From: a virus
DNA length: 64,000 nucleotides
Virus record (IMG/VR): IMGVR_UViG_3300034104_004745
Coordinates: 64,001-128,000 of that record
Direction: 5' to 3' (one strand)
The translations under genes were made by a program, and so were the position numbers. The notes under the pieces were generated by a model. That model made no database searches and was not told the origin of the DNA. It saw only the letters and a program-made list of their open reading frames with translations. Positions 491 to 35,287 of the stretch are shown one piece after another. Numbering within the stretch: position 1 is the first letter of the stretch; every line of letters begins with the position of its first letter.

Positions 491-1522
491 TTATATTAAA
501 TTATTTATTGTCTTAGGAATATATAAATCTACGATGTCGTGCATATTATGGGTACACCCGTATTTTTTATTTATTTTAACCAATTCTATTAAGAACTTAT
601 CAAATTCGGGGTGATTGTGTGACCAAATTTGTTTTAATCTAAATTCCCCTTCTGAATATGTACCCCAGTTGTCTATTTTATTAAAAAATATGTTTACGTT
701 GTTTTTAAAGATTTTCATTATCATTACATAAAAATCCCACATTTCCGTATAATTTGTGTCTTGAACAACAAATGACACATTTTTTTTATTCATGGGGATT
801 TTTGATATAAATTTTAAATTTTCAATCAGGGTTTCCCAATTACCACCTCGTCTAACCACCTCGTACGTTTCTTTTTTACTGGCGTCTACACTAATTTCAA
901 TGGTTTTTATTAAATGGTGTATATGGGATAATTTATCCCACATTTGCTTATTTAAAAGCAACCCGTTGGTGTGTAAGTGAATGTGATTTAGTCTTGGATA
1001 CTTATTAAGGTCAATATTAAATAAAAAATTTCTAAATGTTTTGGATGCAAATGGGTCAGATGTCCCTGAAAGGTATATTAGTTCAACACTGTCGCTGAAC
1101 TGAGTGATAACCTCGTTTAGTTTTGATTCAACAAAATCAATTTCGGAACCATTTGCCATTATCATTGAAGTCCTACATGTTGGGCAGGATAAATTACAAC
1201 TTCTGTCAAATGCGAAATTTAAGCTTTTGGGACCGTTTTTATATTTTTCTAAGTTAAAATCTTCTTTTTTAATAAATTTTGATGGTGGTCTCTTTGTTGA
1301 AATAAAACTAGATAGATATGGGCAAGCTGTTTTAGAACAATATTTATATGACCCATCTAAAATAGAATCTTGTACTTTTGTTAATTGATCTCCACCCCAA
1401 ACCTGACTTAATGAATTACCAACATTATTAGGTAGCCAGGTTGGGCAACAACTATGTGTACTATTTTTATGTATTTCCAAGTACATAAAAGGTGTGGGGC
1501 ATACATAATCATTCAACTTCAT
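491..1522 (-). CDS. Radical SAM protein with N-terminal Cys cluster
   Basis: 343 residues. The radical SAM motif CNLSCPTC (CxxxCxxC, near residues 109-116) would bind the catalytic [4Fe-4S] cluster and SAM. It has family strand motifs SVDASKKETYE and VVRRGG, like the SxD...R.G motif of the seven other radical SAM proteins at 12-22 kb. The GGEP motif of those relatives is replaced by SGTSDP. The N-terminus has CPTPF...HSCC, matching the N-terminal cysteine block that probably holds an auxiliary cluster. It is the lone member of the set at the left end of the island, just upstream in the genome order of the sulfotransferase. Substrate unknown; a peptide or sugar modifier is possible. Confidence 0.8.
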   Translation of the reverse strand: MKLNDYVCPTPFMYLEIHKNSTHSCCPTWLPNNVGNSLSQVWGGDQLTKVQDSILDGSYKYCSKTACPYLSSFISTKRPPSKFIKKEDFNLEKYKNGPKSLNFAFDRSCNLSCPTCRTSMIMANGSEIDFVESKLNEVITQFSDSVELIYLSGTSDPFASKTFRNFLFNIDLNKYPRLNHIHLHTNGLLLNKQMWDKLSHIHHLIKTIEISVDASKKETYEVVRRGGNWETLIENLKFISKIPMNKKNVSFVVQDTNYTEMWDFYVMIMKIFKNNVNIFFNKIDNWGTYSEGEFRLKQIWSHNHPEFDKFLIELVKINKKYGCTHNMHDIVDLYIPKTINNLI

Positions 1523-1526
1523 TGGG

Positions 1527-2174
1527 TTATATTAAATAAGCATGCGGTGATTCACCTTTATCAAGTCTAACTCTATTTTTATCGGCTAAAACAAATTTAT
1601 TATAAATCACGTCATTGAGTTCTACACCAACATATCTTAATATGTCTTTAACAACCGATTTGTTTCTATCCGTATAAATGTCTTCAAAATAAAATATTGG
1701 GTATCCATTTTCGGATAAGCCATGTAGTTTTTTAGACTCTTCGATTAATATTTTTTTTCTATATTCAATATCACTTTCCTCAATACCAGAAAAATCATAA
1801 TATTGTCTTTTATGCCAATCTCCCTTTGTACCTTTTATTGCATGGTATACAAAACTTTCACTTTGTAGAGTTTTATCTTTTCGGTCTAAAAGTATTATTT
1901 TTTCAAAATAATTGAAAAACCAATCCCAATACATTTCATCATTATTTAAAAAACCATTTGGTCGATGAACGTCGTTTAAAAATGTTTTAATGAAAACATT
2001 ATTTTTATTTTCATAAAAACTAGGTAAATAAACATTTCTATTTTTTAATTCGTATAGATATTGATTAAATGGCTCGCAGTGGCTGGTATAATTTAAAGAA
2101 TCTAAATGTTCTTTAATAAGGTAAAAAAGTGTTGTTGATCCGGTTCTTTCGCTACCTAATATTGCAATTCTCAT
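1527..2174 (-). CDS. Sulfotransferase-like protein
   Basis: 215 residues. The N-terminus IAILGSERTGSTTLFYLI has the P-loop-like 5'-phosphosulfate-binding pattern (G-S-x-R-[TS]-G-[ST]-[ST]) of PAPS-dependent sulfotransferases. LLDRKDKTLQSESF in the middle resembles the 3'-phosphate-binding region with its Arg and Ser, and YFEDIY further on fits the family. It would transfer sulfate from PAPS to an acceptor that cannot be read from the sequence. The stop codon of the preceding gene (2171..2695) overlaps this start by 4 nt, so the two are co-translated. A CysC-like APS kinase 6 kb away could supply PAPS. The family call is by motif; the acceptor is unknown. Confidence 0.65.
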   Translation of the reverse strand: MRIAILGSERTGSTTLFYLIKEHLDSLNYTSHCEPFNQYLYELKNRNVYLPSFYENKNNVFIKTFLNDVHRPNGFLNNDEMYWDWFFNYFEKIILLDRKDKTLQSESFVYHAIKGTKGDWHKRQYYDFSGIEESDIEYRKKILIEESKKLHGLSENGYPIFYFEDIYTDRNKSVVKDILRYVGVELNDVIYNKFVLADKNRVRLDKGESPHAYLI

Positions 2175-2695
2175 ATAAGCTTGTTTTTATTTGGTTCCAT
2201 TCTGAATTTATGAATAAACATCGCAATTGACCATCTTTCCCTTTCGATTAATGGTGTTATTTGGTGAGGTATTTGTGATTGAAATATACAAACATTACCC
2301 ACTTTTTTATCAATGACTATTGGTTTATCATCTTCATCATAAATTATATAATCTCCACCAATAAAATCTTCATTTAAGATGATACCAACATTCCACTCTT
2401 TTATAGGATTTCCGGTGTCTATATGCTTACCAAATTCATCACCAACAGTGAAGTGATGTAAATTTAGTTTAATAGGTCTTAAAAAAATGTGTAACTTCAT
2501 CTCTTTTTCGAAAAAGTCACACATTCTTTTTATAATCCAGTCAACATCGGTCTTATATTCCAATGTGTAAAATTTATAATTAAAATTATCGAATTCACCC
2601 CATCTACCATTAGTACCTAATAATGGATATTTGTTTTTTAAATTTATGATAGTTTTACATTCATCTTCGGTAAATAAAATAGATTGAATTAACAT
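2171..2695 (-). CDS. 2OG-Fe(II) dioxygenase, prolyl-4-hydroxylase-like
   Basis: 174 residues with the double-stranded beta-helix signature of 2-oxoglutarate/Fe(II) dioxygenases. The HxD iron ligands are in KHIDTGNP, the distal His is in QIPHQITP, and the 2OG-binding Arg is in the downstream RERWSIAMF segment. The GGDYIIYD segment between them matches the GGEL/F strand of prolyl-4-hydroxylase-type enzymes. The likely reaction is hydroxylation of a peptidyl side chain or small molecule using O2 and 2-oxoglutarate. It overlaps the sulfotransferase start by 4 nt. It is one of four such enzymes in 2.2-6.9 kb. Substrate unknown. Confidence 0.8.
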   Translation of the reverse strand: MLIQSILFTEDECKTIINLKNKYPLLGTNGRWGEFDNFNYKFYTLEYKTDVDWIIKRMCDFFEKEMKLHIFLRPIKLNLHHFTVGDEFGKHIDTGNPIKEWNVGIILNEDFIGGDYIIYDEDDKPIVIDKKVGNVCIFQSQIPHQITPLIERERWSIAMFIHKFRMEPNKNKLI

Positions 2696-2722
2696 TTGTA
2701 ATGGTTGATTTTTTGTTTATTA

Positions 2723-3253
2723 CTATATGATTTTTAATTTACCATTTTTTATTTGTGATTTTCTAAAAAAAACCAATATAATGTTTCTAATCCCTTCTTT
2801 TATTTCATAAAGCTCATGTTCAAATATTGATTCAAAAAAATAACAGTTACCAATAATTTTTTGAAAATTAAATATTTCGGTATTATTAGTAATGTTCTCA
2901 ATAATAAATTCTCCTCCCTCAAAATCATCATTTAATAATAAACCTAACCCATATAATCTGTTATGAATACTATCGTTGTGCCTATTAAATTTATCTCCCT
3001 TAACATATGTTTGTAAATAAAACTCTTTACTATCCGTATTTTCCCAATCAATAGAAATATTAAATTCTTCGTTTATCCACAATATAAATCTATCTAATAT
3101 CCACTTATCTTCAACGTCATTCATATTTTTATAAGTGTAACTTATACTTGACTTACGTATTTGATTTCCATCGATAGGTTTCAGTTCATACTTTTTTAAA
3201 ATCAAATCACACTCTTCTTTTGAAAAAAGTATCTTTTGTTTTGGTGTAGTCAT
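2723..3253 (-). CDS. 2OG-Fe(II) dioxygenase
   Basis: 176 residues from the ATG at 3253 (MTTPKQK). A longer frame to 3289 would run 35 nt into the previous gene, whereas the 3253 start sits next to the upstream stop at 3255. The HxD ligands are in NRHNDSIH, followed by NDDFEGGEFII, the distal His in IFEHELYEI, and Arg in GIRNIILVFF. This is the same arrangement as the neighbouring 2171..2695 enzyme but with divergent sequence, so a paralogue rather than a recent duplicate. A hydroxylase role is expected; the substrate is unknown. Confidence 0.75.
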   Translation of the reverse strand: MTTPKQKILFSKEECDLILKKYELKPIDGNQIRKSSISYTYKNMNDVEDKWILDRFILWINEEFNISIDWENTDSKEFYLQTYVKGDKFNRHNDSIHNRLYGLGLLLNDDFEGGEFIIENITNNTEIFNFQKIIGNCYFFESIFEHELYEIKEGIRNIILVFFRKSQIKNGKLKII

Positions 3254-3254
3254 A

Positions 3255-3986
3255 TTATATAATAGATTTAGTTCTTTTAAAAGCGCCATCTACGTATTTG
3301 TCAACAAATTCTATCAATTCTGGTGTTTTTGTTATCGCACAGTAATCTATTTTTGTTTGATTAACGTGTGATAATTTGAAATCAACATTAAGTTTTTCAG
3401 ACATATAATCTTCAAATTCCTCTATTCTATCAAAATGAAATTCCTTAACTTTTACTGTATCGTTTAATATCCAATTATATTGTGAAATAAATGTCAATAT
3501 ATGAAGTGAAAAACGATGAACAAATTTATTATCTTTTTTCAATTCTTCGGGAAATTCTAATTCATCAATTAATTTAAGAAAAAGTTTTTTTACTGTATCA
3601 TTATCTCCATACGCGTTAATGAAATCATTATAATTGTTTTTTATAAAATTAATTAAAAATTCATTGTTTTTATTTTTCATTTTATCTAACGTAAAAGAAT
3701 CTAATAACTCGGAAGATTGTGCAATAAAAAATTTCCACGCTGAAATAAATCTATCTGTTGAATTTCTTAGTATACAAACGTAATCTAAATTATCCCCAAA
3801 TGTTCTAATTAAAGATTGTACTTTTGTATGAATATGTTTATTTTTTTGCCCATCCTCCTTCATTGTATTTTCCCATAAAATATTGGTATATTTTAAATCG
3901 AAATTGTATTCCTTACAGGTAAATTCTACTGACCATGATGCGTTTTTTGGTATTGGGATGAACGCAATTTTATCATTTATGACCAT
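3255..3986 (-). CDS. Sulfotransferase family protein (Sulfotransfer_2-like)
   Basis: 243 residues. IAFIPIPKNASWSVE near the N-terminus matches the FIPKTAGTS-type phosphosulfate-binding loop. KHIHTKV and the segment CILRNSTDRFISAWKFF match the 3'-phosphate-binding R-[ND]-P-x-x-R-x-x-S motif of carbohydrate sulfotransferase-like proteins. The Pro of the loop is replaced by Ser-Thr here. It probably uses PAPS to sulfate a glycan, but this is family inference. It lies between two 2OG dioxygenase genes with 1-3 nt spacing, so is part of one operon. Confidence 0.65.
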   Translation of the reverse strand: MVINDKIAFIPIPKNASWSVEFTCKEYNFDLKYTNILWENTMKEDGQKNKHIHTKVQSLIRTFGDNLDYVCILRNSTDRFISAWKFFIAQSSELLDSFTLDKMKNKNNEFLINFIKNNYNDFINAYGDNDTVKKLFLKLIDELEFPEELKKDNKFVHRFSLHILTFISQYNWILNDTVKVKEFHFDRIEEFEDYMSEKLNVDFKLSHVNQTKIDYCAITKTPELIEFVDKYVDGAFKRTKSII

Positions 3987-3989
3987 TTA

Positions 3990-4553
3990 TTATATAAAAC
4001 TTTTAGTATTTTTAACAACATCTTTTATTTGGAATCCTAATGTTAAAGTTATTCTAGGTTTTTCACCTATTACGGGGGTACTGCCATGTTTAACTTTACC
4101 CGCAACACATCTCCACACCATCCTTTCCTTTAATTCATTTATTTTACCGTTATATATGGAATGTCCTCCTTGTTCGGGATAAGATAGTATAATATTATAT
4201 CTGACATGTGTATACCCATCCACATTCATATCAGTATGTGTGTGAATTGATCCGCCCTCTCTATTAATACCAATGGCATCTTCAAAATTTGGGTCTAATA
4301 TCCAATCGTTAATTTTTTCTACTTCAATTACCCTATCCTTTATCTTTTTTACTATATCTAATGGGGAATTTGGTATCCTATTTAATACACCGATTTGTCT
4401 AGAACCGTATGGTGCATTTATGGTATGACTATTTGTTGTGTTTATTTCAAATAGATGTGAATTAGAATTTGTCCAAAATAAAAGAATTTCTTGTTCTTCG
4501 TTTGTTATAAATTCCTCATAACCATAGGTGTCATTCAACTCTATGTGTTTCAT
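3990..4553 (-). CDS. 2OG-Fe(II) dioxygenase-like protein
   Basis: 187 residues. HTHTDMNVDGYTHVRYNIIL gives the HxD metal ligands followed by the RYNIILSYPEQGG strand. VAGKVKHGSTPV contains the distal His and EKPRITLTLGF the 2OG-binding Arg. The order and spacing fit a cupin-fold dioxygenase acting on a soluble or peptide substrate. It is third of the four dioxygenases in the island and directly follows the 40-residue peptide gene at 4570..4692. Partner and substrate cannot be read from sequence. Confidence 0.7.
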   Translation of the reverse strand: MKHIELNDTYGYEEFITNEEQEILLFWTNSNSHLFEINTTNSHTINAPYGSRQIGVLNRIPNSPLDIVKKIKDRVIEVEKINDWILDPNFEDAIGINREGGSIHTHTDMNVDGYTHVRYNIILSYPEQGGHSIYNGKINELKERMVWRCVAGKVKHGSTPVIGEKPRITLTLGFQIKDVVKNTKSFI

Positions 4554-4569
4554 AAGTTAATTTTATAAT

Positions 4570-4692
4570 TTATTGACTCGTAATGTCAGTATAAATAAGA
4601 GTTGCAACCTCTTGCATTATGGTTGCAACATTTGTATTAGTTGTACCACTTGTTGGTACAACTTCTGATGATAAAATTTTTGGTTTTGACAT
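4570..4692 (-). CDS. Small 40-residue peptide, unknown
   Basis: ATG at 4692 opens a 40-codon frame, MSKPKILSSEVV onward, rich in Ser/Thr/Val with TSGTTNTN in the centre. A longer frame reaching 4815 overlaps the previous gene by 100 nt and is rejected. It fits neatly between the 511-residue Hint-like gene (end 4715) and the dioxygenase (start 4553), which supports real coding. It has no Cys and no signal peptide. It could be a modification substrate (precursor-like) for the surrounding enzymes, but that is only positional inference. Confidence 0.5.
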   Translation of the reverse strand: MSKPKILSSEVVPTSGTTNTNVATIMQEVATLIYTDITSQ

Positions 4693-4714
4693 TTTTTTAT
4701 AATTTATAAATTTA

Positions 4715-6250
4715 TTATTCTTTAGGAACTCTTTCTCCTCCGCCGCCACAATAAGAGCAACTGTTACACGACCACCAACTACATCCACCACCAGAACACC
4801 AGCTGTAACACGCATTATGTTGTATAAATGCTAAACCTAAAGTTTCATCTAAAACCGGTAGGAATACATCACTTTGTTCAACATTTATATCAAATATCAT
4901 TCTATTTACATAAACCACCTCTAAATTTGTTATTTTAGATTTAGTTAACGTATCATTAATATAATCATAAAACACAATGGAATCATCTATTCTAAATGTA
5001 TTTGTTAATGCATATGTGGTACGAAGTGTATCAAACTCTTCAATAATCATGTTACTACCAGGTAAATCTTCATATGTTAAACCATTTTCTAAAGTGACTT
5101 TAATCATTAAACATTCTTTTTGAGCTCCACTTATTTCTTCAACTATTGTTGATGAAGTTGTAAATACTGTAAGGTCGTCTGTAAAATTATTACTGTTCAC
5201 TCCAGGTATAAAATTTGGGATGCCGTCGATTAATTCATCGTCAAGGGGTACCCACGGAAGTAGTAATGTTTTTAATGTACTATTAATCGTTATTTGACTT
5301 GGTAACACTAAATCACCTTCACCATTTAAAATTTTTGTATCATTGTCTAAAATGTAAATCTCACCAAGGGTATTTGGTGATTTAGTCATCCATAGTACTC
5401 TAGATGATTGTGACATCAAACCATTTGAATCATACTCTGTTGGCCATTCATCATGTTTAACTTGTGAAGTCATTATATATGACCCCAAATGTAAACAACT
5501 AAGTGTTCCTCCATATAATATATCTAAACTTCTAATTACACCCATTTTTTCATTCACAATATTATCAGAATGAGTGTGATACTCTTCCATGTATTCCGAT
5601 TCAATTAATGATTCTTTCAATAATTGTAAATTTTCTAATGATGTGATTTTATACAATTTCGGATATGTAACAAGATTTCTATTAGGATATCTAGGTTTAA
5701 CAATGTAATTTGGTGTATCTCCATTTGTAATATGTAAATCGGTTAATTGGTCAATATTTAAATAGGTATCAACATTAGATGAATAGAATATGTTTGGTGA
5801 ATATGATTTATTTTGAATCAATCTATGAAAATTAACTTTATCTTTCGTATATTCTTCATCCACAACCGCTGTGGTATCATATGATGTTCTTATGATTAAT
5901 GTGTTATCACCGTCCTCAATATATGGAACCGTTATTGAATTATGTGCCACTTGGTGAAAGGTAAATGAACCATCTAAATCACCTATAATTTCTTCCATTT
6001 TATCTTTGATGGTAACATCATTAAGATTCGTACTAAATGCACCATCTTTTTCACTATAAATGATATTTCCCTCAGTTACAATAAGATGTAAATTATTTAT
6101 GGAATTATCTATCAAAAATTGCCTAAAAGAGTCCCAATCTAAATTTGGTACGATTTTATTATGTACATCAACATTCGTATTTGTTTCAATTATTCTTAGA
6201 TTTCCGTTTGAATCTTTTAATAGATCCGTACCAATTATTACTGCTTTCAT
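4715..6250 (-). CDS. ATP-grasp-like plus Hint-like protein with Cys-rich tail
   Basis: 511 residues, not a family I can name firmly. Residues about 16-28 (NGNLRIIETNTNVD) resemble the metal-binding ExN strand of ATP-grasp enzymes. Residues about 165-270, with YIVKPRYPNRN and the later YMEEYHTHS and VIRSLDILYGG, resemble the ATP-grasp central region, which would make the order permuted. The C-terminal half, through TLRTTYALTNTFRIDDSIVF and MIFDINVEQSDVFLP, resembles a hedgehog/intein (Hint) fold. It ends at the splice-type dipeptide HN (478-479). After HN come 32 residues with six Cys, beginning ACYSWCSGGGCSWWSC. No clear N-terminal Hint nucleophile is seen, so cleavage activity is unproven. 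A promoter-like palindrome lies just upstream. Confidence 0.5.
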   Translation of the reverse strand: MKAVIIGTDLLKDSNGNLRIIETNTNVDVHNKIVPNLDWDSFRQFLIDNSINNLHLIVTEGNIIYSEKDGAFSTNLNDVTIKDKMEEIIGDLDGSFTFHQVAHNSITVPYIEDGDNTLIIRTSYDTTAVVDEEYTKDKVNFHRLIQNKSYSPNIFYSSNVDTYLNIDQLTDLHITNGDTPNYIVKPRYPNRNLVTYPKLYKITSLENLQLLKESLIESEYMEEYHTHSDNIVNEKMGVIRSLDILYGGTLSCLHLGSYIMTSQVKHDEWPTEYDSNGLMSQSSRVLWMTKSPNTLGEIYILDNDTKILNGEGDLVLPSQITINSTLKTLLLPWVPLDDELIDGIPNFIPGVNSNNFTDDLTVFTTSSTIVEEISGAQKECLMIKVTLENGLTYEDLPGSNMIIEEFDTLRTTYALTNTFRIDDSIVFYDYINDTLTKSKITNLEVVYVNRMIFDINVEQSDVFLPVLDETLGLAFIQHNACYSWCSGGGCSWWSCNSCSYCGGGGERVPKE

Positions 6251-6263
6251 TATTATTTTTTAT

Positions 6264-6282
6264 TATTTATATATAAATATCC
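6264..6282 (-). promoter_or_regulatory. Promoter-like palindrome TATTTATATATAAATA
   Basis: Perfect 16-bp palindrome at 6264-6279, 14 nt upstream of the start at 6250. It contains the TATTTAT core in both orientations, so it is one of the recurring AT-rich motifs. Its function is inferred. Confidence 0.4.
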
Positions 6283-6287
6283 TTATT

Positions 6288-6929
6288 TTAAATTAACGAT
6301 GAGGTCTTCTTAACGAATTCCAAACCAATATTTCCCGCTAAAACTATTCTATCAATTGTCGAATTTGGGGCATTTTTAGGAGAATGGGGTACATCTGCTT
6401 GCATAATTATTAATTCGTCTTCCTCAGGTTTAACCCAATATTCGACACCTTTTTTATTTTTAAAGTACAATACCCCATCATCACCATTCATAACATCAGG
6501 CATTTGAATATAATAAACAAAGGTAAAGTCGGGGTGGAACGTCTTTAATTTTTTATTAATATCCGTATGGACGTGGTATTTGTCGACATTATTTTTCCAA
6601 AATTCTGTTTGCACTGGTTTTTTATGTCTAATTCGATTTACCCAAGTTTCTAGGTTAACTTTATTAAAAGGGATGTTATCATCCTCGTATATTTTTTTAC
6701 ACTCATTAATTCCTATTTGTGTAATTTCGTCCATTTTATTTGATATATTCAATTCACCTGATGAATTTATAGAGTCCGTCCAATATATAACACCAAATCC
6801 ATCATGTTTAGATTCCGGTTGGGACTTTATTATTTTGTTAGCCTCTTCCAATAAAGAATCTTTGTATTTTACCAAATTTAATTTTTTTTTCCATATAAAT
6901 GTATTTTCATCAAAGTATATTTTTTTCAT
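6288..6929 (-). CDS. 2OG-Fe(II) dioxygenase-like protein
   Basis: 213 residues. YHVHTDINKKLK carries the HxD ligands. The later TFVYYIQMPDVMNGDDGVLYF strand, the distal His in ADVPHSPKNAP and Arg in TIDRIVLAGNIGLEF complete the dioxygenase facial triad and 2OG site. DVPHSPKN resembles the H-x-V/S loop of phage and marine 2OG oxygenases. The C-terminus overlaps nothing; the N-terminus overlaps the stop of the methyltransferase gene by 4 nt, so the two are probably translated together. Its partner may hydroxylate or halogenate-like modify an unknown substrate; hydroxylation is the default. Confidence 0.75.
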   Translation of the reverse strand: MKKIYFDENTFIWKKKLNLVKYKDSLLEEANKIIKSQPESKHDGFGVIYWTDSINSSGELNISNKMDEITQIGINECKKIYEDDNIPFNKVNLETWVNRIRHKKPVQTEFWKNNVDKYHVHTDINKKLKTFHPDFTFVYYIQMPDVMNGDDGVLYFKNKKGVEYWVKPEEDELIIMQADVPHSPKNAPNSTIDRIVLAGNIGLEFVKKTSSLI

Positions 6930-7534
6930 AATAAAACTTTAGTCTCTATTTTTTTATAAAAATTGGTTCCGTTAAATGTTGTATATTTCAACTCAAATTC
7001 ACCGTTTTTAAAATGAAGATTTTTATATGGTAATGCTTCATATTCCGCATCTGTCAATTTATGCCTAACCGCATTAAATACATTATCTTTAACTGGCGTT
7101 GAAAAAAAACCAACTATGGTTCCCTGTTTACAATTTGGTTTTACATAATCTAAAAATTTAGAAATATTTGGGTCCCTATGTGTGTCATGTAAAATACCGT
7201 CAAACTTTGATTGTAGTGTTGGTAAAACATTAATCCAATCACCTAAAATTATTTTTACTTTTGGTTTGTCTTGTGCCCATTTTAATGCGCTTTTAAACAT
7301 TTCGGGGTGTATTTCAATTATTGTATGTGATGTTATATTTGGATTAGACTGAATTCCGTCAGCAGATAAATGCATACCAAAACCAATTTCAAGTATATCT
7401 CCACCATTTTTTGTTACTATTTCTGCTAACCTATACATTAAAGATTTTTCCCCTTTATGCATTACCCAATCTTTTTCTAAATTTGTAATTCTAATCTCAT
7501 CGTCAGATATTATTACTTTTTCTGTTCCCTTCAT
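6926..7534 (-). CDS. SAM methyltransferase related to guanidinoacetate/arginine N-methyltransferases
   Basis: 202 residues. ILEIGFGMHLSADGIQ is the SAM-binding glycine-rich motif I in the exact style of guanidinoacetate methyltransferase and RMT2-type enzymes (VLEVGFGMxxxA). HTIIEIHPEMF is motif II, ILGDWINVLPTL is the post-II strand, and FDGILHDTHRD corresponds to the FDGILYDTY segment. This strongly suggests an N-methyltransferase for a guanidino or related amine substrate. The actual substrate is unknown. It lies between a 2OG dioxygenase (4-nt overlap) and the DUF2061 membrane protein. GAMT-like proteins are unusual in phages as far as I know. Confidence 0.75.
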   Translation of the reverse strand: MKGTEKVIISDDEIRITNLEKDWVMHKGEKSLMYRLAEIVTKNGGDILEIGFGMHLSADGIQSNPNITSHTIIEIHPEMFKSALKWAQDKPKVKIILGDWINVLPTLQSKFDGILHDTHRDPNISKFLDYVKPNCKQGTIVGFFSTPVKDNVFNAVRHKLTDAEYEALPYKNLHFKNGEFELKYTTFNGTNFYKKIETKVLL

Positions 7535-7756
7535 TTATAAAATATTCTTATTTTTTAACCCATACTTAATCCACCTATACCATACCCTTTCATGAATATA
7601 ATATTGAATTGGTTTATATACTAATTCAGCAACACCAAATGCTGCGCCAACCTTAATCGAACCACTTATCCACCACATTATAATAAACCCAATTAGGGTG
7701 CTTATAACACGGTACGAAATGGTTTTTGCAATGTGTCTTTTACGTTCTACTACCAT
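7535..7756 (-). CDS. DUF2061 small membrane protein
   Basis: 73 residues. The pattern RHIAKTISYRVISTLIGFIIMWW, then a short loop and VGAAFGVAELVYKPIQYYIHERVWYR, matches the DUF2061 family, with two predicted membrane passes. Family function is unknown, but DUF2061 proteins commonly sit beside or are fused to sulfate-activation genes. Here it lies directly beside a nucleotidyltransferase and an APS kinase, fitting that pattern. It overlaps the nucleotidyltransferase stop by 17 nt. It may help uptake or scaffold sulfate activation; that is inference. Confidence 0.75.
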   Translation of the reverse strand: MVVERKRHIAKTISYRVISTLIGFIIMWWISGSIKVGAAFGVAELVYKPIQYYIHERVWYRWIKYGLKNKNIL

Positions 7757-8102
7757 CTGAATTTATTAATTTATTTCTTATTGCAGTTCCACTTATTTCA
7801 GCAATTTCTGTGGGTGGTTCGTGATAAATAACCTCGTATCCAACCCCTCTACCATAATTAACCGATTCAATATCTGGGATAATAGATACGAGAATCTTAT
7901 CAAAATTATTGTTGAAGAAAGGTTCTTGTATTAACATCTGAAAAACTTCTTGTGCCGTCTTTGGGTTGTTTTCGTCAACTTCAACATCTCTAATAGCAAC
8001 CCATACATTTTTACCTTGGTTTAATTGTTGATTAATCAACCATTCGTGACCTTTGTGCCAGTTCTGCCATCTACCGATGTATAGTGCGTATTTTTTACTC
8101 AT
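7740..8102 (-). CDS. Small nucleotidyltransferase (HxGH family)
   Basis: 120 residues. GRWQNWHKGHEWLI is the GRFQPxHxGH nucleotide-binding motif, and ISGTAIRNKL near the C-terminus is the second IS[ST]xxxR signature. Together these mark an adenylyl/cytidylyltransferase of the NMNAT/NadM type with a Rossmann-like fold. It is short, lacking extra domains. Its gene overlaps the APS kinase start region by 4 nt, and the neighbour DUF2061 suggests a link to sulfate activation. However, its size and motifs are closer to NadM than to ATP sulfurylase. Substrate unresolved. Confidence 0.75.
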   Translation of the reverse strand: MSKKYALYIGRWQNWHKGHEWLINQQLNQGKNVWVAIRDVEVDENNPKTAQEVFQMLIQEPFFNNNFDKILVSIIPDIESVNYGRGVGYEVIYHEPPTEIAEISGTAIRNKLINSDGSRT

Positions 8103-8533
8103 AATGTTATGTTTTTTAATAATTTATAATATGAATCTGTTTCATTATCTGTTGTTGTGTCAATATCAATAAAGTTTTCTGTTGGTGCTTCATATTCAGT
8201 AACGTGAAATGATTCACGACCTCTAATTTCAGAAGTGTGAACATATATTTCAATAACAGAATTTTGTGATTTAAAACGATCTCTTTGATCTTTATACGGT
8301 GCAACCAATGAAACAACAACGTCGAATCCTTTGCTATTCATAAATTGAGCAATATATTGAGCTCTTTCGACATTCGCACGTCTACCATACTCACTATAGT
8401 CCTTATTATTGAATGCGTTTCGTAAATCGTCACCATCAATGTGGATGACATTGTCTTTAGGGAAGTGTTCCACTAAATATTTTGCTAATGTGGTCTTACC
8501 AGCACCTGGTTGACCTGTAAACCAGTATATCAT
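8099..8533 (-). CDS. cysC: Adenylylsulfate (APS) kinase, CysC-like
   Basis: 144 residues from the ATG at 8533 (MIYWFTGQPGAGKTTLA); the frame to 8560 opens only at a TTG. WFTGQPGAGKTTLA is the Walker A P-loop. HIDGDDLRNAFNNKDYS is the D-G-D-x-x-R substrate-binding motif, and the RRANVERAQYIAQFM segment and VSLVAPYKDQRDRF match APS kinases. It would phosphorylate APS to PAPS, the sulfuryl donor for the two sulfotransferases in this island. A triplicated 8-bp repeat and a 38-residue basic peptide gene lie upstream. CysC is an accepted metabolic gene in some phages; that it works in concert here is inference. Confidence 0.85.
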   Translation of the reverse strand: MIYWFTGQPGAGKTTLAKYLVEHFPKDNVIHIDGDDLRNAFNNKDYSEYGRRANVERAQYIAQFMNSKGFDVVVSLVAPYKDQRDRFKSQNSVIEIYVHTSEIRGRESFHVTEYEAPTENFIDIDTTTDNETDSYYKLLKNITL

Positions 8534-8556
8534 ACTATTAATATAAGGAATTATTT

Positions 8557-8580
8557 TCAAATAATCAAATAATCAAATAT
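8557..8580. repeat. Three tandem 8-bp repeats TCAAATAW
   Basis: TCAAATAA, TCAAATAA, TCAAATAT in immediate succession, 24 nt upstream of the APS kinase start. On the coding strand each unit contains ATTTGA, close to the TTTG boxes of Bacteroidota promoters. It could be part of a promoter or operator, or simple AT-rich slippage. Confidence 0.5.
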
Positions 8581-8696
8581 CAATGATTATATGTAAATGG
8601 GTCGCGTTTTTTTAATTCTTCCATCTTTTTTTTATGGATTCTTTTACGTTTATACTCTTTAATTTTGGACATTAACCAATTTATTAGTTTTTTCAT
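8580..8696 (-). CDS. 38-residue basic peptide, unknown
   Basis: An ATG at 8696 opens 38 codons ending TGA at 8580, giving MKKLINWLMSKIKEYKRKR, then a KKKMEELKKRDPFTYN-type end. It is strongly basic and amphipathic with a C-terminal DPFTY. It lies between the APS kinase and the glycosyltransferase and fills a 155-nt gap, and it begins like a genuine small phage protein. It is not an obvious DNA-binding or membrane family. I think it is real because the codons form a coherent, non-random peptide. Function unknown. Confidence 0.55.
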   Translation of the reverse strand: MKKLINWLMSKIKEYKRKRIHKKKMEELKKRDPFTYNH

Positions 8697-8715
8697 ATTA
8701 ATTTTATGTTTTATA

Positions 8716-9501
8716 TTAAATAATCTCTTCCAAAAAGTTTAATTGTTCACTTATTATTGGTTTGTTTATGTGTAAATGCACAAATTTATTTGAAATAAAT
8801 GCTAATCTATCAAAACTATTAAGGTCATGTGGATTATCCGTAGCACCTTTACATATAAACCCAAAATCAATACCATATTTTATTATATATTGGTGAGATA
8901 AGAATTGTTCCAATAGGGTTGGTGTTATTTCGTGTATATCTTTATTATCTATTAATTTAAAAATTGTTTTAAAAATTGTTGACATTATAATTGGGTTTTT
9001 TACTATAACAACACAAAAACAAGGATATATCGACCAATTCATGATGGTTAATTCTTGGTCGTTATAATATTTTTTTATGTTATTAACAAATGGTTTTATA
9101 TAAGCATCCTGAGCCCAATTCACCATATGCATGTCAACATGTTCTCTATTTAGATTAACCTCCGGATATCCATAAGTTATTGTGTGTATTGATTCTAGTT
9201 TTTCGAACAATACTACATCTAGATCCATTAAGATATATGGCTCGGTTTCCTTAATCATTGCATAAATTTTAGGAATTGAAAATTGAGTTGGGTAATCATC
9301 TATAAACTCATTGATAATGATAACCTCATCAAATAAGATGTTGTTTTGTTGGAAAAAAATGTGTGAATTTAAATCACAATATATTTTAGTTTTGTAAAAC
9401 TTTTTGGCCGATTTAACAGATAATTTAGCTAACCTAATGAAATCATCGTTGATTGGTTTATAATGGTTATAAATTATTTTAAATGCGAAAATGGCTGTCA
9501 T
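8716..9501 (-). CDS. Glycosyltransferase-like protein (GT-A fold)
   Basis: 261 residues. The N-terminal region through TKIYCDLNS and the acidic DLDVVLFEKL (YILMDLDVV, D-x-D motif near residue 92) resemble GT-A glycosyltransferases of the DUF6734 type. NWSIYPCFCVVIV and HLHINKP near the C-terminus may form the acceptor and metal sites. It would transfer a sugar from a nucleotide sugar to an unknown acceptor. It is next to the carbamoyltransferase with 12 nt spacing. The exact family is uncertain. Confidence 0.55.
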   Translation of the reverse strand: MTAIFAFKIIYNHYKPINDDFIRLAKLSVKSAKKFYKTKIYCDLNSHIFFQQNNILFDEVIIINEFIDDYPTQFSIPKIYAMIKETEPYILMDLDVVLFEKLESIHTITYGYPEVNLNREHVDMHMVNWAQDAYIKPFVNNIKKYYNDQELTIMNWSIYPCFCVVIVKNPIIMSTIFKTIFKLIDNKDIHEITPTLLEQFLSHQYIIKYGIDFGFICKGATDNPHDLNSFDRLAFISNKFVHLHINKPIISEQLNFLEEII

Positions 9502-9513
9502 ATTATTTTAAAT

Positions 9514-11190
9514 CTATTTGTATATCAAGTAGTTACCTATAACAAGGTAATCCATTTCTGTGTTAAAAAATGTTTCTAACGCATCTTTAGGTGTTAATAC
9601 CATTGTTTTATCTTTTATGTTAAATGAGGTATTAAGTAATATTGGGTAACCACTTAATTTTTCGAATTCTAATAATAAATTATAGATCGTAGAATTTTTA
9701 TAAACAGTTTGGACTCTTGCTGTCCCATCTACATGTGTTATCGATGGTAGGTGATCTACATAGTCAGGTTTAACTTTAATGATTTGATTCATATATGGGA
9801 CGTCCCCAGATACATTAAAATATAAGTGTTGTTTTTCCTTTATAACCATAGGTGCAAATGGTCTAAAACCTTCCCTTTTTTTAATCACTTTGTTAATCTT
9901 GTCTTTCATTCCGGGAATTGTTGGGTCTGCTATAATTGATCTGTTACCCAATGCCCTTGCGCCGAATTCGATATGTCCTCTATACCACCCAATAACCTTA
10001 CCTTTTCTTAATTTTTCAGCAACTTTCTTAATTAAAACGTCTTCAGATCTAAACCTAAAGAATTTTAAATTTTTACTATTTTTGATAAAAGTATCATAGT
10101 AATAGCTTGGTCCCAGAAATGGGTTTTTAGGAATTCTTTCCTTTAATTTTTTGTTTTTAACCAAATAATGAATACAAGCCCCAATAGACGATCCAGCGTC
10201 AGATGGGGCTAATGGTATCCATAAGTTATTAAAGTGCGAATTTGAGACTATTTTACCGTTTGCGGTGCCATTATACGCGCACCCACCAGATAAACATAAA
10301 TTACCATTATCGTTTATTATTGAAATCGATTTTATGACCTCAAATAATATTTCCTCATATCGCATTTGAACCGCTGCAGCTAGATCTTTATGATCTTGCG
10401 TTATTTCACTGTCAATAACTCTTGGGTCTAAGTTTAACAACTCTATTAGTTTGTAATTGAACATACTTGTTGTTGATCTATCCCAACAAAATACCTCCAT
10501 ATTACATGTTAATGAACTATTTTTATATGTAATTAGTTTTCTAACTTTTTTTATATATTTTTCCGGGTCGCCATATGGTGCCAACCCCATAACCTTATAT
10601 TCACCCTCGTTTGGTTTAAACCCCAAGAATGCGGTTAATGCAGAATAGAATAAACCCAAAGAATGTGGGTATTCTGCCATGGATATATAATCTATGCCGG
10701 TATTATCCGCTAACCCCATAGATAAGGTGTCGATCTCACCAACACCATCTATAGACAAGCAAACAGCATTTTGAAAATTTGAACTGTAAAAAGAATAATA
10801 TTGATGAGACTCGTGGTGTGTTGAATAAAATATATTGTCAGAGTACTTTTTTAGCTCCTTATTTAAGCTCCAAGTATTCTTTTTTATTTTATACAGTGTT
10901 TGTAATGAGTATATTGGGTTTTTTAATAGTTGTGGTTTTATGTTTTTAAGAACCCTTTTAAGTTTTAGTTCCGGATATTCATAGAAACATATCATTTCAA
11001 TATCATCTCGCTTAATCTTATAATTTTTAATTATATAGTTAAGTGCTTGGTGTGGAAATGAACTATCATGTTTGATCCCTGTAAATTTTTCTTCCTCACA
11101 AGCAAAAACCAGCTGTCCGTTTTTGAATAAACAGACAGCTGAGTCGTGATAGAAAGCGGATATACCAATAATATACTGAATTTTACTCAT
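9514..11190 (-). CDS. Carbamoyltransferase (NodU/CmcH/TobZ family)
   Basis: 558 residues, the usual size of the two-domain NodU/CmcH/TobZ family. The N-terminal Kae1-like domain begins YIIGISAFYHDSAVCLF, and FACEEEKFTGIKHDSSFP and THHESHQYYSFYSS carry the conserved metal-binding His. The C-terminal YrdC-like part includes VIGWYRGHIEFGARALGNRSI and the DxxxPxFxPFAP-like REGFRPFAPMV. Such enzymes use carbamoyl phosphate and ATP to make carbamoyl-adenylate and O-carbamoylate hydroxyls, for example on Nod factors or tobramycin. Here a hydroxyl on a glycan or modified peptide is a reasonable acceptor, but this is inference. No domain appears missing. Confidence 0.9.
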   Translation of the reverse strand: MSKIQYIIGISAFYHDSAVCLFKNGQLVFACEEEKFTGIKHDSSFPHQALNYIIKNYKIKRDDIEMICFYEYPELKLKRVLKNIKPQLLKNPIYSLQTLYKIKKNTWSLNKELKKYSDNIFYSTHHESHQYYSFYSSNFQNAVCLSIDGVGEIDTLSMGLADNTGIDYISMAEYPHSLGLFYSALTAFLGFKPNEGEYKVMGLAPYGDPEKYIKKVRKLITYKNSSLTCNMEVFCWDRSTTSMFNYKLIELLNLDPRVIDSEITQDHKDLAAAVQMRYEEILFEVIKSISIINDNGNLCLSGGCAYNGTANGKIVSNSHFNNLWIPLAPSDAGSSIGACIHYLVKNKKLKERIPKNPFLGPSYYYDTFIKNSKNLKFFRFRSEDVLIKKVAEKLRKGKVIGWYRGHIEFGARALGNRSIIADPTIPGMKDKINKVIKKREGFRPFAPMVIKEKQHLYFNVSGDVPYMNQIIKVKPDYVDHLPSITHVDGTARVQTVYKNSTIYNLLLEFEKLSGYPILLNTSFNIKDKTMVLTPKDALETFFNTEMDYLVIGNYLIYK

Positions 11191-11244
11191 TTACACATAT
11201 ACTTCTAATTTAAATATACGGATAAAAATAGTAAAAAAAGAGTC

Positions 11245-11451
11245 TTAAACTGTAATTATTTCAAAATAATGGTATTTTTCACCATTTAATTCTAATACAA
11301 CCACATCAATTTCTTCACTTAGTTCACTTATCATTAAATTATCTTTAAGATATTCTAATGCTAATTCTTTAGTCTCAAACGAATTATCTAATAATTCTAA
11401 GTCTCCTGTACCAAATTCGGTCCTTTTTAATGCATTGATTTTATAAGCCAT
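11245..11451 (-). CDS. Hypothetical protein, 68 residues
   Basis: Small acidic protein with an alpha/beta pattern, MAYKINALKRTEFG and the strand EIDVVVLELNGEKYHYFE. I do not recognise a family. It has its own promoter-like motif right upstream (11464-11479) and is separated from the carbamoyltransferase by 54 nt, so it may be expressed independently. Coding is supported by regular codon content. Confidence 0.6.
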   Translation of the reverse strand: MAYKINALKRTEFGTGDLELLDNSFETKELALEYLKDNLMISELSEEIDVVVLELNGEKYHYFEIITV

Positions 11452-11463
11452 AGTTTTTGTTTT

Positions 11464-11479
11464 TTATATAAATACTTTA
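11464..11479 (-). promoter_or_regulatory. Candidate phage promoter motif
   Basis: On the coding strand TAAAGTATTTATATAA, 13 nt upstream of the 11451 start. It is one of the best matches to the recurring motif. Confidence 0.5.
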
Positions 11480-12208
11480 AATTATTTGTCTTTTTTGTGA
11501 AGTGTCATTTTTTTTGCCCGATCCATAGAATTCTGAGTATAATTTTTCATTATATATAATCGTATAGTCAATAACCTCATGTAAATGCTTTGAAAGGGTT
11601 TTATGCCCATTTTCACTATAATGAGAGTCTTGTACTTTATTTTCGGTTTCTTCTTTGATGGTTTGGATTTTTGGTATGGTTATGACATCCATTCCGGGGA
11701 AAAAGCCAGAAAAAGGTGACCAATGAATTACCAGATTATTTTTAAATGTACGATTTATTAATTTAATTAAACTATTTAATTCATTAACATAGCAAGAATT
11801 ACCGTGTCTATTAACTAAGATTTCTTCCATAGTATTTATTGAAATCCCCATTAAATCACAACTTATTTTTTTTTGGTTATTGTCCCAATTAGAATGCATT
11901 GTGGTAAATTTACCAAATTTATTTGCCAATCTAGCCCTCTCAATACTAGACCAACCAATAATAATAATATCACCATCTTTTATTTCATCTATATTTTTCA
12001 CAATAATCTCAAGTATACTTTGATTATCTGCACCTCCATGCCCCCTATTAATACAAGTATATCTAAAATCTTCAGATAAAAAATCAGTAAAAACTTTAGG
12101 TACGTACTCTTTATATTCAAAGTATTTAGCTCTCCAATCCGATAGTCCTGGGACAGGGGCTAAAGATTGTGTAAAAGAATCACCAAACGCCCAAATTTTT
12201 CTTTCCAT
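11477..12208 (-). CDS. SGNH/GDSL hydrolase-like protein
   Basis: 243 residues. The catalytic GDSF block I (WAFGDSFTQ), the NRGHGGADNQ block with Gly/Asn, the GWSSIERA segment and the C-terminal DSHYSENGH (D-x-x-H catalytic pair) define the SGNH hydrolase fold. Such enzymes deacylate or deacetylate esters, including O-acetyl groups on glycans. In this island, trimming or acyl editing of a glycan is a plausible role. It is preceded by a promoter-like motif about 55 nt upstream. The substrate is not predicted. Confidence 0.75.
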   Translation of the reverse strand: MERKIWAFGDSFTQSLAPVPGLSDWRAKYFEYKEYVPKVFTDFLSEDFRYTCINRGHGGADNQSILEIIVKNIDEIKDGDIIIIGWSSIERARLANKFGKFTTMHSNWDNNQKKISCDLMGISINTMEEILVNRHGNSCYVNELNSLIKLINRTFKNNLVIHWSPFSGFFPGMDVITIPKIQTIKEETENKVQDSHYSENGHKTLSKHLHEVIDYTIIYNEKLYSEFYGSGKKNDTSQKRQII

Positions 12209-12262
12209 TAATGTTTATTTTTTATAATATAATGTTTAAAACACATTTTATCAATGTTTACT

Positions 12263-12277
12263 AAATATAAATACAAA
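12263..12277 (-). promoter_or_regulatory. Candidate phage promoter motif
   Basis: Coding-strand TTTGTATTTATATTT, about 55 nt upstream of the SGNH hydrolase start at 12208. A long AT-rich leader follows it. Confidence 0.45.
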
Positions 12278-12278
12278 T

Positions 12279-13544
12279 CTATATCATTTTTTCATTTATG
12301 AATCCGTGTATCTTTAATCCTATCTCATTTTCAAATTTTTCCAATCTTAAAGTATCTAAAGTTTCGTTATATTTCTTAAACTCTCGATACAAATCAAATC
12401 TATTTAAATCATCAACATCACTAATACTAAAAAGATAGATAGAATCTAATAATTCTATTATCTCTTTATTAATATCGTCACTAACACCTAACGATTTTAA
12501 CTCTTGATTAAAGGTTAATAAACGAGTTTTAAACCTATCTTTAATTTCATTAGATATCCATTTACAACTTAAATAATCAGGACCATATATTGGATTTATC
12601 GCCAACATTCTTCTTCGTGAATAATCTATATTTTTTTCAATAAGACCTTGGTTAATTAATTCAAGAATCATATCAAATGTATGTAGATAATTTAGTGCCC
12701 CATAAGAAAAAGTATAAAAAATATGTGAATTAGTTAAAAATTCTGATACTTTTTTAGCATTTGTGATAAAAGTTTCAGTTTTAAATCCAGATCTTATATA
12801 CTCGCCTACACTACCTAAACCGTCTAAACTAGGAAATAATGTGATGTTATTAAAATGAGACCAATAATCAAAAATATGTTTATTTTTAAACGTTATTTTT
12901 GATAAATTGGTGCTATATCTTAAATAAACTTGTTTGTTTCTTTTTATTATCTCATCTAATATTTCATAATGATGCTCACTTATTAATGGTTCGCCACCAG
13001 CAAAATATATTTCATCCACATATTCATAATGATCACCTAATTGTTTTAAAAAATCATTTGTATCATCTAAAGTTATTATTGCTTGGTTACTATGTGACAT
13101 ATTCATACTAACAGCATCATTAAACCAAGATGAACTAAACCCATGATAACACATCCTACATTTAAAATTACATAGATTAGTGATTCTAATATCCCACAAA
13201 TGAAACTTTGTTTCGTCATAATCAACATAGTCAACACATTGTGGATAATCTCTATTTAATCTTTGTCTATATGATTCCGAGTTTAATTTCTCATTATTGA
13301 TACAATTAGAACATTGTTTAACAAAATCACCAGATATCATTTTACTCTTAATATCTTTAGATTTATCTGATTTATAAATCTCATTTAATGTTGATTTATT
13401 AATATTGCCAAGAGGATCATTTAAATCCCAATTACAACACGGAAGAACATTACCATTAGGATGAACATAGACACTCATCCAAGGCGCAACACAAAAAGAT
13501 TTTGAATCAACTAGTAAAGATTTCTTCTCATTTTCATTCATCAC
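12279..13544 (-). CDS. Radical SAM protein, N-terminal twitch-like type (1 of 7)
   Basis: 421 residues. The N-terminal block FCVAPWMSVYVHPNGNV with PCC, then QCSNC, resembles the auxiliary cluster region of twitch-domain radical SAM proteins. The radical SAM motif is CNFKCRMC, followed by FAGGEPL and FPSLDGLGSVGEYIR. The C-terminal region is an alpha-helical extension. The family cleaves SAM to a 5'-deoxyadenosyl radical and modifies a peptide or sugar; the substrate is unknown. It overlaps its neighbour by 4 nt (start at 13544 or 13541), and it is the last gene of the co-translated set of seven. Confidence 0.8.
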   Translation of the reverse strand: MMNENEKKSLLVDSKSFCVAPWMSVYVHPNGNVLPCCNWDLNDPLGNINKSTLNEIYKSDKSKDIKSKMISGDFVKQCSNCINNEKLNSESYRQRLNRDYPQCVDYVDYDETKFHLWDIRITNLCNFKCRMCYHGFSSSWFNDAVSMNMSHSNQAIITLDDTNDFLKQLGDHYEYVDEIYFAGGEPLISEHHYEILDEIIKRNKQVYLRYSTNLSKITFKNKHIFDYWSHFNNITLFPSLDGLGSVGEYIRSGFKTETFITNAKKVSEFLTNSHIFYTFSYGALNYLHTFDMILELINQGLIEKNIDYSRRRMLAINPIYGPDYLSCKWISNEIKDRFKTRLLTFNQELKSLGVSDDINKEIIELLDSIYLFSISDVDDLNRFDLYREFKKYNETLDTLRLEKFENEIGLKIHGFINEKMI

Positions 13545-34513: not shown

Positions 34514-35287
34514 TTAACAATTTGAACACCCAGGGTCATATTCATATAATTGACATCCATAACCACAATCATAATATTTGTGATATCTTGGTCTAAAATA
34601 GTTGGTTAACTGTAATATTTCCATTCTAGACAATACTCTATTATAAACTAATACAGCACCAATCTGCCCATTTGCAAATTCTGAGCCTCCAACATATGAA
34701 CCTAATCTAAAACCATTAGGTCCTTGTGAACCAGCGTTATTTGATACTGTTGAATTACCATTAACATAAATTTCATAAGTGTCACTAGAAATATTACCAG
34801 TTCCAGCTAAAAATTTCCAGTTAGTGTCCGATGTACCTGCACCCACACCTGAAACCCATCCTTCAGCATAATAATTACCGGTATAACCACCCCAGTGACC
34901 TAAAAGCCAGTTGTTACTTCTCGCTGAAATTAATCTACCAGCCTCATAACCAGCTGGATATATTGATGAATCTATTGTAACATACCTAGCAACACCAAAA
35001 ACAGTATAATTTGTTGATGTCATATTTGGTGTAGATACATCAACATAATCATTTGTACCATCTAATGTTATGACACCACCAAATTGTGTTGAATATCCCG
35101 CACCATTTATTAATGTTCCGTGATTACCATTTCCGGTTAAATCAAACCAAGTAGACCCCGAACCAGGATATGAATTTGACACTCCGGCGTCTAAATACAT
35201 AACCAAACCATCACGGATTACCGTTGTTTCGTTGTAATATTTTACTTGACTATCTGTTAATATGTTTCCGTTTATATCAAATGGCAT
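34514..35287 (-). CDS. LamG-like lectin protein with Cys-rich C-terminus (1 of 3)
   Basis: 257 residues. The N-terminal adaptor MPFDINGNILTDSQVKYYNE is shared with two neighbours. A LamG/concanavalin jelly roll follows: VMYLDAGVSNSYPGSGSTWF, then GGVITLDGTNDYVDVS and NGQIGAVLVYNRVLSRMEIL. The C-terminus differs from its paralogues: RPRYHKYYDCGYGCQLYEY then DPGCSNC, giving four Cys in the last 17 residues. Likely a glycan-binding virion tip. The Cys may form disulfides or bind metal. Overlaps next gene by 1 nt. Confidence 0.75.
   Translation of the reverse strand: MPFDINGNILTDSQVKYYNETTVIRDGLVMYLDAGVSNSYPGSGSTWFDLTGNGNHGTLINGAGYSTQFGGVITLDGTNDYVDVSTPNMTSTNYTVFGVARYVTIDSSIYPAGYEAGRLISARSNNWLLGHWGGYTGNYYAEGWVSGVGAGTSDTNWKFLAGTGNISSDTYEIYVNGNSTVSNNAGSQGPNGFRLGSYVGGSEFANGQIGAVLVYNRVLSRMEILQLTNYFRPRYHKYYDCGYGCQLYEYDPGCSNC

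Follow-up and report, generated by a model that had tools for sequence, protein, structure and literature searches.

Does the gene for P0001, a 511-residue phage protein, specify a self-cleaving carrier that releases a Cys-rich peptide, as a first-pass annotation proposed, or an enzyme that keeps its Cys-rich end? The gene, which an ORF check places on the minus strand, lies in the 64,000 nt stretch analyzed here (the window), comprising bases 64001–128000 of a 198,825-base IMG/VR virus record (Table 1). P0001 begins with a D-x12-ExN hairpin, continues through an ATP-grasp-like centre and a Hint-like domain that closes with QHN, and finishes in a 32-residue Cys tail. The overall reading that we favor, to which we assign about an even chance, is that of a permuted R2K-like ATP-grasp ligase in which a dead Hint domain serves as the stalk for a Cys-rich tip, the latter being followed by additional caps in relatives of P0001.

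P0001 belongs to an undescribed phage family

Used alone as the query, P0001 did not match anything meaningful in Pfam, PHROGs or the PDB. Iterated profile scans of IMG/VR retrieved seven close relatives in the first round and, altogether, homologues from around 45 distinct viral contigs (designated here by L numbers), with identities of 26–87%. A search of 50,697 cultured phage records using P0001, L006, L010, L020, L034 and L057 as queries retrieved no homologue, L010 yielding a single chance match, and the C-terminal regions of L005 and L035 retrieved from cultured phages S74 domains or noise and nothing else; the family was likewise not found in two scans of some 85,000 bacterial and archaeal genomes. 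The family is phage-only and previously undescribed, and the virus carrying P0001 is a large uncultured phage. We found no description in the literature of an ATP-grasp joined to a Hint domain in phages, and the domain order proposed here (permuted ATP-grasp, dead Hint, Cys-rich end and swappable self-cleaving cap) occurs in none of the libraries searched. The residue counts given below derive from an alignment of 42 homologues, with which AlphaFold2 (AF2) produced a model with a mean pLDDT of 80.7 and a pTM of 0.77, as compared to a pLDDT of 37 with just eight close homologues.

Table 1. Coordinates within the window of the P0001 gene, its putative domains and associated genes.
Feature	Coordinates	Strand	Basis
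Whole gene, 511 aa (P0001) plus stop	4715..6250	-	Full-length homologues found
Beta-hairpin D9-x12-E22-x-N24, residues 1–37; putative ATP-grasp metal-binding end shifted to the N-terminus	6140..6250	-	Invariant in 42 homologues; profile matches
Putative pre-ATP-grasp-like alpha/beta domain, residues 38–121	5888..6139	-	Inference from the order of secondary structure in the AF2 model
Putative ATP-grasp centre, residues 122–292; K185, R187, K198, K201, E223, R240, D243, R284	5375..5887	-	Conservation counts; weak matches
Hint-like domain, residues 298–479, without Cys1 or block-B His, ending in QHN	4814..5359	-	Foldseek; PDB HMM; alignment
His478-Asn479	4814..4819	-	Alignment rows
Cys-rich C-terminus, residues 480–511, six Cys	4718..4813	-	Alignment; low model confidence here
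Companion micro-ORF, 40 aa, MSKPKILSSEVVPTSGTTNTNVATIMQEVATLIYTDITSQ	4570..4692	-	ORF at the equal place in all loci checked; dN/dS
2OG-Fe(II) oxygenase-like gene, product ends KKTSSLI	6288..6929	-	2OG-FeII_Oxy_3, E 5e-5, just below cut-off
2OG-Fe(II) oxygenase-like gene, product ends KNTKSFI	3990..4553	-	Weak, E 0.07; phrog_13746
Sulfotransferase-like gene, product ends RTKSII	3255..3986	-	Weak, E 0.01
Radical SAM gene of the same island, product ends NNLI	491..1522	-	E 5e-11

The N-terminal half resembles a permuted ATP-grasp ligase

The ExN-type strand described in the first-pass annotation was borne out by the alignment: the N-terminal motif of P0001 is IGTD9-x12-E22-T-N24, and its D, E and N are kept in 42/42 homologues, as are K185, R240, D243 and R284, with E223, K201 and R187 each present in 41 and K198 in 37. 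Compared to the ATP-grasp fold, D9 would correspond to the acidic residue of strand 4, E22 and N24 to the ExN of the last strand, and K185, located in strand 182–186 of the AF2 model, to the Lys of the second RAGNYA strand; the linker Lys is not conserved (K138 in 18 of the 42). The D-x12-ETN spacing equals that of D257, E270 and N272 in D-Ala-D-Ala ligase, and the hairpin of the family aligns to residues 256–278 of E. coli DdlB (hhalign E 0.004), while the C-terminal end of the Pfam RimK profile matches residues 1–27 of L078. Because K185, E223, R240 and R284 come after D9, E22 and N24 in the chain, this order would be that of a circular permutation. Rejoining the ends of the family chains in the canonical ATP-grasp order (un-permuted sequences) improved the Pfam RimK match to E 0.0035 (RimK C-terminal positions 140–168). 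In a scan of NCBIfam with the un-permuted sequences alone, CofF, the RimK family and MvdC were weakly matched (E 0.03–0.04), the CofF match spanning the rejoined junction, and CP_ATPgrasp_1 (PF04174) matched one un-permuted member at E 0.09 and none in the natural order; outside the hairpin, these values of E around 0.03 are per scan, with many members scanned.

The un-permuted family profile did not match any PDB entry, nor did the family match RimK alone in hhalign. The order of secondary structure elements in the AF2 model fits a putative RAGNYA plus kinase-like fold; the 50 best PDB matches listed by Foldseek were all of the Hint type, with neither an ATP-grasp structure nor a sequential structural match among them. 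The permuted-looking ATP-grasp centre of the first-pass annotation therefore stands as regards motifs and weak profile matches, but not as regards a sequential structural match, and the structure prediction and profile search suggested there as a check led to the Hint fold by both routes and to the ATP-grasp by motifs and weak profiles, not by Foldseek.

Proteins of the R2K clade (CDC123, DUF4343) are inferred protein-peptide ligases (PMC4431377) and occur in jumbo phages (PMC7824862). In residue pattern the family comes closest to this clade, the putative resemblances being the lack of a conserved linker Lys, an extra K/R after the strand-2 Lys and a loop without a Gly motif (PMC4431377), as well as an Arg in the first kinase-like strand, the D...ExN arrangement and a presence in phages. 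Unlike R2K proteins, the family appears circularly permuted, with the ExN hairpin first, and is joined to a Hint domain and a Cys-rich end; permutation is not mentioned for the R2K clade in PMC4431377, and no R2K Pfam model matched the family in scans up to E 10. With RimK, CofF and MvdC the family shares the ExN hairpin and, once un-permuted, the order E...R...D...ExN, although its natural order is permuted and, as judged from sequence comparisons, the similarity is too low for membership. CP_ATPgrasp_1 shares the permutation in principle, but in a different domain context. The best reading of the N-terminal half of P0001 is thus a putative circularly permuted, R2K-like amide/peptide ligase, which would use ATP to activate a carboxylate and then create an amide or peptide bond on a partner. 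Candidate partners would be tail-fibre or other virion proteins, or host proteins, with the product of the companion micro-ORF as a cofactor or substrate.

The Hint-like domain has a broken catalytic set

The 50 best PDB matches of the model listed by Foldseek were all Hint domains or inteins, with TMt up to 0.76, and included hedgehog 1at0 (E 8e-8) and the Mtu RecA intein (TMt 0.76). Hint/intein chains also ranked first in a comparison of the family HMM to the PDB (E 0.05–0.2), and several members weakly matched the Pfam Intein_splicing and Hint models. The model with its Foldseek matches, the independent HMM ranking and the weak Pfam matches together strongly support a predicted Hint fold for residues ~298–479, in agreement with the Hint-like segment ending in HN that had been annotated. 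The family shares this fold and the terminal HN with the Hint superfamily (hedgehog, inteins, BIL domains) but, unlike it, P0001 lacks Cys1, the block-B His is missing in its clade, and the residue following HN is variable and can be Pro.

We compared the alignment with the residues needed for Hint/intein catalysis as listed in PMC4031507. As to the N-terminal nucleophile (Cys1/Ser1, block A), none of the 42 members has a Cys at or beside Hint position 1. The block-B TxxH motif has a Gly at the His position in P0001 and is varied within its clade, and the His is found in 22 members, mostly of the S74 type. Conversely, the terminal His-Asn pair is present in P0001 (H478 N479), with the His in 39/42 rows and the Asn in 40/42, two rows ending before the site, which usually reads QHN or THN, and SN in L057. 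The residue at +1 can be A, G, P, R, L, Q, Y or F, and Pro directly follows HN in five members (L003, L022–L025). A Pro at +1 is expected to block cleavage at HN. To judge from these residues, the first Hint of the family appears catalytically dead, and we have moderate confidence that the HN of P0001 is structural, a role that does not fully account for its strong conservation.

These observations bear directly on the carrier that had been proposed, in which Asn479 would cyclise and the Cys-rich tail be freed as a peptide by cleavage at HN-A. HN is kept in nearly all members reaching it, the tail is small and Cys-rich, and there is a precedent in the C-terminal cleavage of inteins, which can happen off-pathway without N-terminal cleavage (PMC4031507). 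However, the absence of a nucleophile at position 1, the loss of the block-B His in the window clade, the Pro or otherwise variable residue at +1, the SN of L057 and the position of processing modules downstream of the Cys region in relatives (see below) all count against it, and we regard this carrier as very improbable. In the permuted ligase that we favor, the dead Hint would act as a rigid stalk presenting the Cys-rich C-terminal tip, and P0001 would make no cut at HN.

Relatives carry putative self-cleaving caps after the Cys-rich end

The tail after HN in P0001 has, as annotated, 32 residues and six Cys. Among the 20 members making up its half of the family, 18 have six Cys and the other two seven, down to about 31% identity, which is more than expected by chance; the tail spans ~26–32 residues in the clade of P0001 and the group sister to it, and that of L027, read to its stop, also contains six Cys. 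The Cys stretch is longer in the S74 clade (~67–90 residues), and its Cys count is even (6–12) in every fully readable row, including L037 and L050 (8 and 10, counted by hand); the Cys-rich tail of L057 is also long. Such even counts would be compatible with disulfides, among related sequences that are not independent, and the Cys residues could otherwise bind a metal.

An S74/ICA chaperone, absent from P0001, directly follows the Cys region in 18 members, among them L031–L035, L044 and L005; 16 members match S74, L035 above the Pfam cut-off, and a Ser-x4-Lys dyad is kept in 18/18. The spacing of this dyad is that of the auto-cleavage residues S578/K583 of MYRF, which are equivalent to those of phage endosialidases (PMC3742443). 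Relatives of P0001 thus end in the same module as endosialidase tailspikes and MYRF but, in contrast to these, it is preceded by a Cys-rich stretch. L078 (5001–6953) instead has a degenerate Hint and six Cys, followed by another, intact-looking Hint that possesses Cys1, TYDH and HN, scores above Pfam cut-offs and ends in HN-KKQY; to this second Hint the family alignment gave a short weak match and nothing more. In a tree, the S74 clade is separate and the S74-bearing L005 is nested among the uncapped clade, indicating repeated gain or loss of caps.

In members without a cap, the stop comes no more than ~14 residues past the last Cys, close to the expected S74 cut position. Their C-termini read ...VCNK, FCNK, QCGKA, QCPTK or SFCDQGGKV, and YCGGGGERVPKE in P0001, and the S74-type junction is ...C-N-x-x-K|SD, where the expected cut leaves ...YCNxQK. 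Most simply, the Cys-rich end would be the mature C-terminus in all members, exposed by differing means: in relatives, the auto-cleaving trimeric S74 chaperone or the second Hint would remove itself, whereas the P0001 gene would encode this end directly via its stop codon. Since processing in the family, by S74 or a second, intact-looking Hint, appears to take place past the Cys region, the Cys segment would remain on the protein, and the tip probably stays there rather than leaving as a peptide. The family could then be seen as a natural series that follows the conversion of a Hint into a scaffold, with C-terminal processing taken over by other modules.

The S74 part of the relatives matches virion-structural and tail-fibre PHROGs, and uncapped members might share a virion role. 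S74 caps typically belong to tail spikes and fibres and, with the Hint dead, P0001 could be envisaged as a tail or virion part reusing the ATP-grasp and Hint folds without catalysis. We find this quite unlikely, as the predicted metal and ATP residues of the ATP-grasp are invariant at 26% identity, unlike in a relic.

Separately, a LamG-like protein (identified by eye) of the same phage, encoded at 34514–35287 on the minus strand, likewise has Cys in its C-terminal tail, CGYGCQLYEYDPGCSNC.

A conserved micro-ORF and modification enzymes adjoin the gene

An ORF of 36–49 aa is found directly downstream of the family gene in 18/18 aligned loci, plus L002 and L003. Its dN/dS of ~0.06–0.43, from comparisons of the window, L002, L003 and L004, indicates that it is very probably a real gene under purifying selection, whose product may be a partner (cofactor) or a substrate of P0001. 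The radical SAM and dioxygenase genes that had been annotated nearby are also present, the latter as 2OG-Fe(II) oxygenase-like genes. The surroundings in the window include tail-fibre-like, glycosyltransferase-like and radical SAM genes, with, around the P0001 gene, a densely packed island whose genes resemble those for 2OG-Fe(II) oxygenases, sulfotransferases and methyltransferases. Across family loci, the frequent neighbours are 2OG oxygenases, sulfotransferase-like genes and a zinc-ribbon-like gene of 92–108 aa, this last not seen beside the P0001 gene in the window.

The suggested peptide-maturation system would be compatible with the putative peptide-ligase-type ATP-grasp, the conserved micro-ORF and the adjoining radical SAM and 2OG genes. 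In a RiPP-like version of it, the ATP-grasp would be the maturase of the adjacent micro-ORF peptide, acting with the radical SAM and 2OG enzymes. The constant position and purifying selection of the micro-ORF, the weak match to the MvdC maturase and the modification enzymes nearby agree with this; however, micro-ORFs vary strongly between clades and show by eye no repeated core or acceptor motif, and neither a transporter nor a protease was noticed nearby. Furthermore, to our knowledge no graspetide maturase resembles the fusion to Hint and S74. We therefore consider a RiPP-like system unlikely, and retain the permuted ligase, with the micro-ORF product as its putative cofactor or substrate. 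The family points to a possible ATP-dependent protein modification in large uncultured phages.

Leaving out the P0001 gene, 12 of the 16 genes in the island (491–13541) encode products ending in a hydrophobic residue plus I/L, compared to 2/51 elsewhere (Fisher p 2e-8), a count inflated by oxygenase paralogy, although unrelated families carry the -LI ending nonetheless. This ending, usually just preceded by K/R/N and also seen in L009, L020 and L022, is common to non-homologous 2OG oxygenase-like, sulfotransferase-like, radical SAM, methyltransferase-like, GDSL-like and zinc ribbon proteins, and might possibly be a docking or packaging tag. An origin at the DNA level (gene overlap or ribosome site) was judged insufficient, as there is no overlap with the next start in several of the tagged genes, and codons and stops differ. 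Endings of this type (KSLI, KSII, NKLI) were noticed in L004, L010, L021 and L034 too. In its fullest and rather speculative form, which we consider unlikely, our proposal would be a virion-borne trimeric permuted ligase, its tip exposed by interchangeable caps or a stop, working with a 40-residue partner and with enzymes tagged -[K/N]..LI to modify phage or host surface proteins.

Also on the minus strand are an APS-kinase-like gene (8099–8533) and a nucleotidyltransferase-like gene (7740–8102), both recognized by eye, and a carbamoyltransferase gene (9514–11190) identified by profile; these could plausibly provide sulfate and carbamoyl donors for the decoration of virion glycans. Around seven radical SAM/SPASM-like genes, two of them profile-tested and the others read by eye, form a run on that strand between 12279 and 22052.
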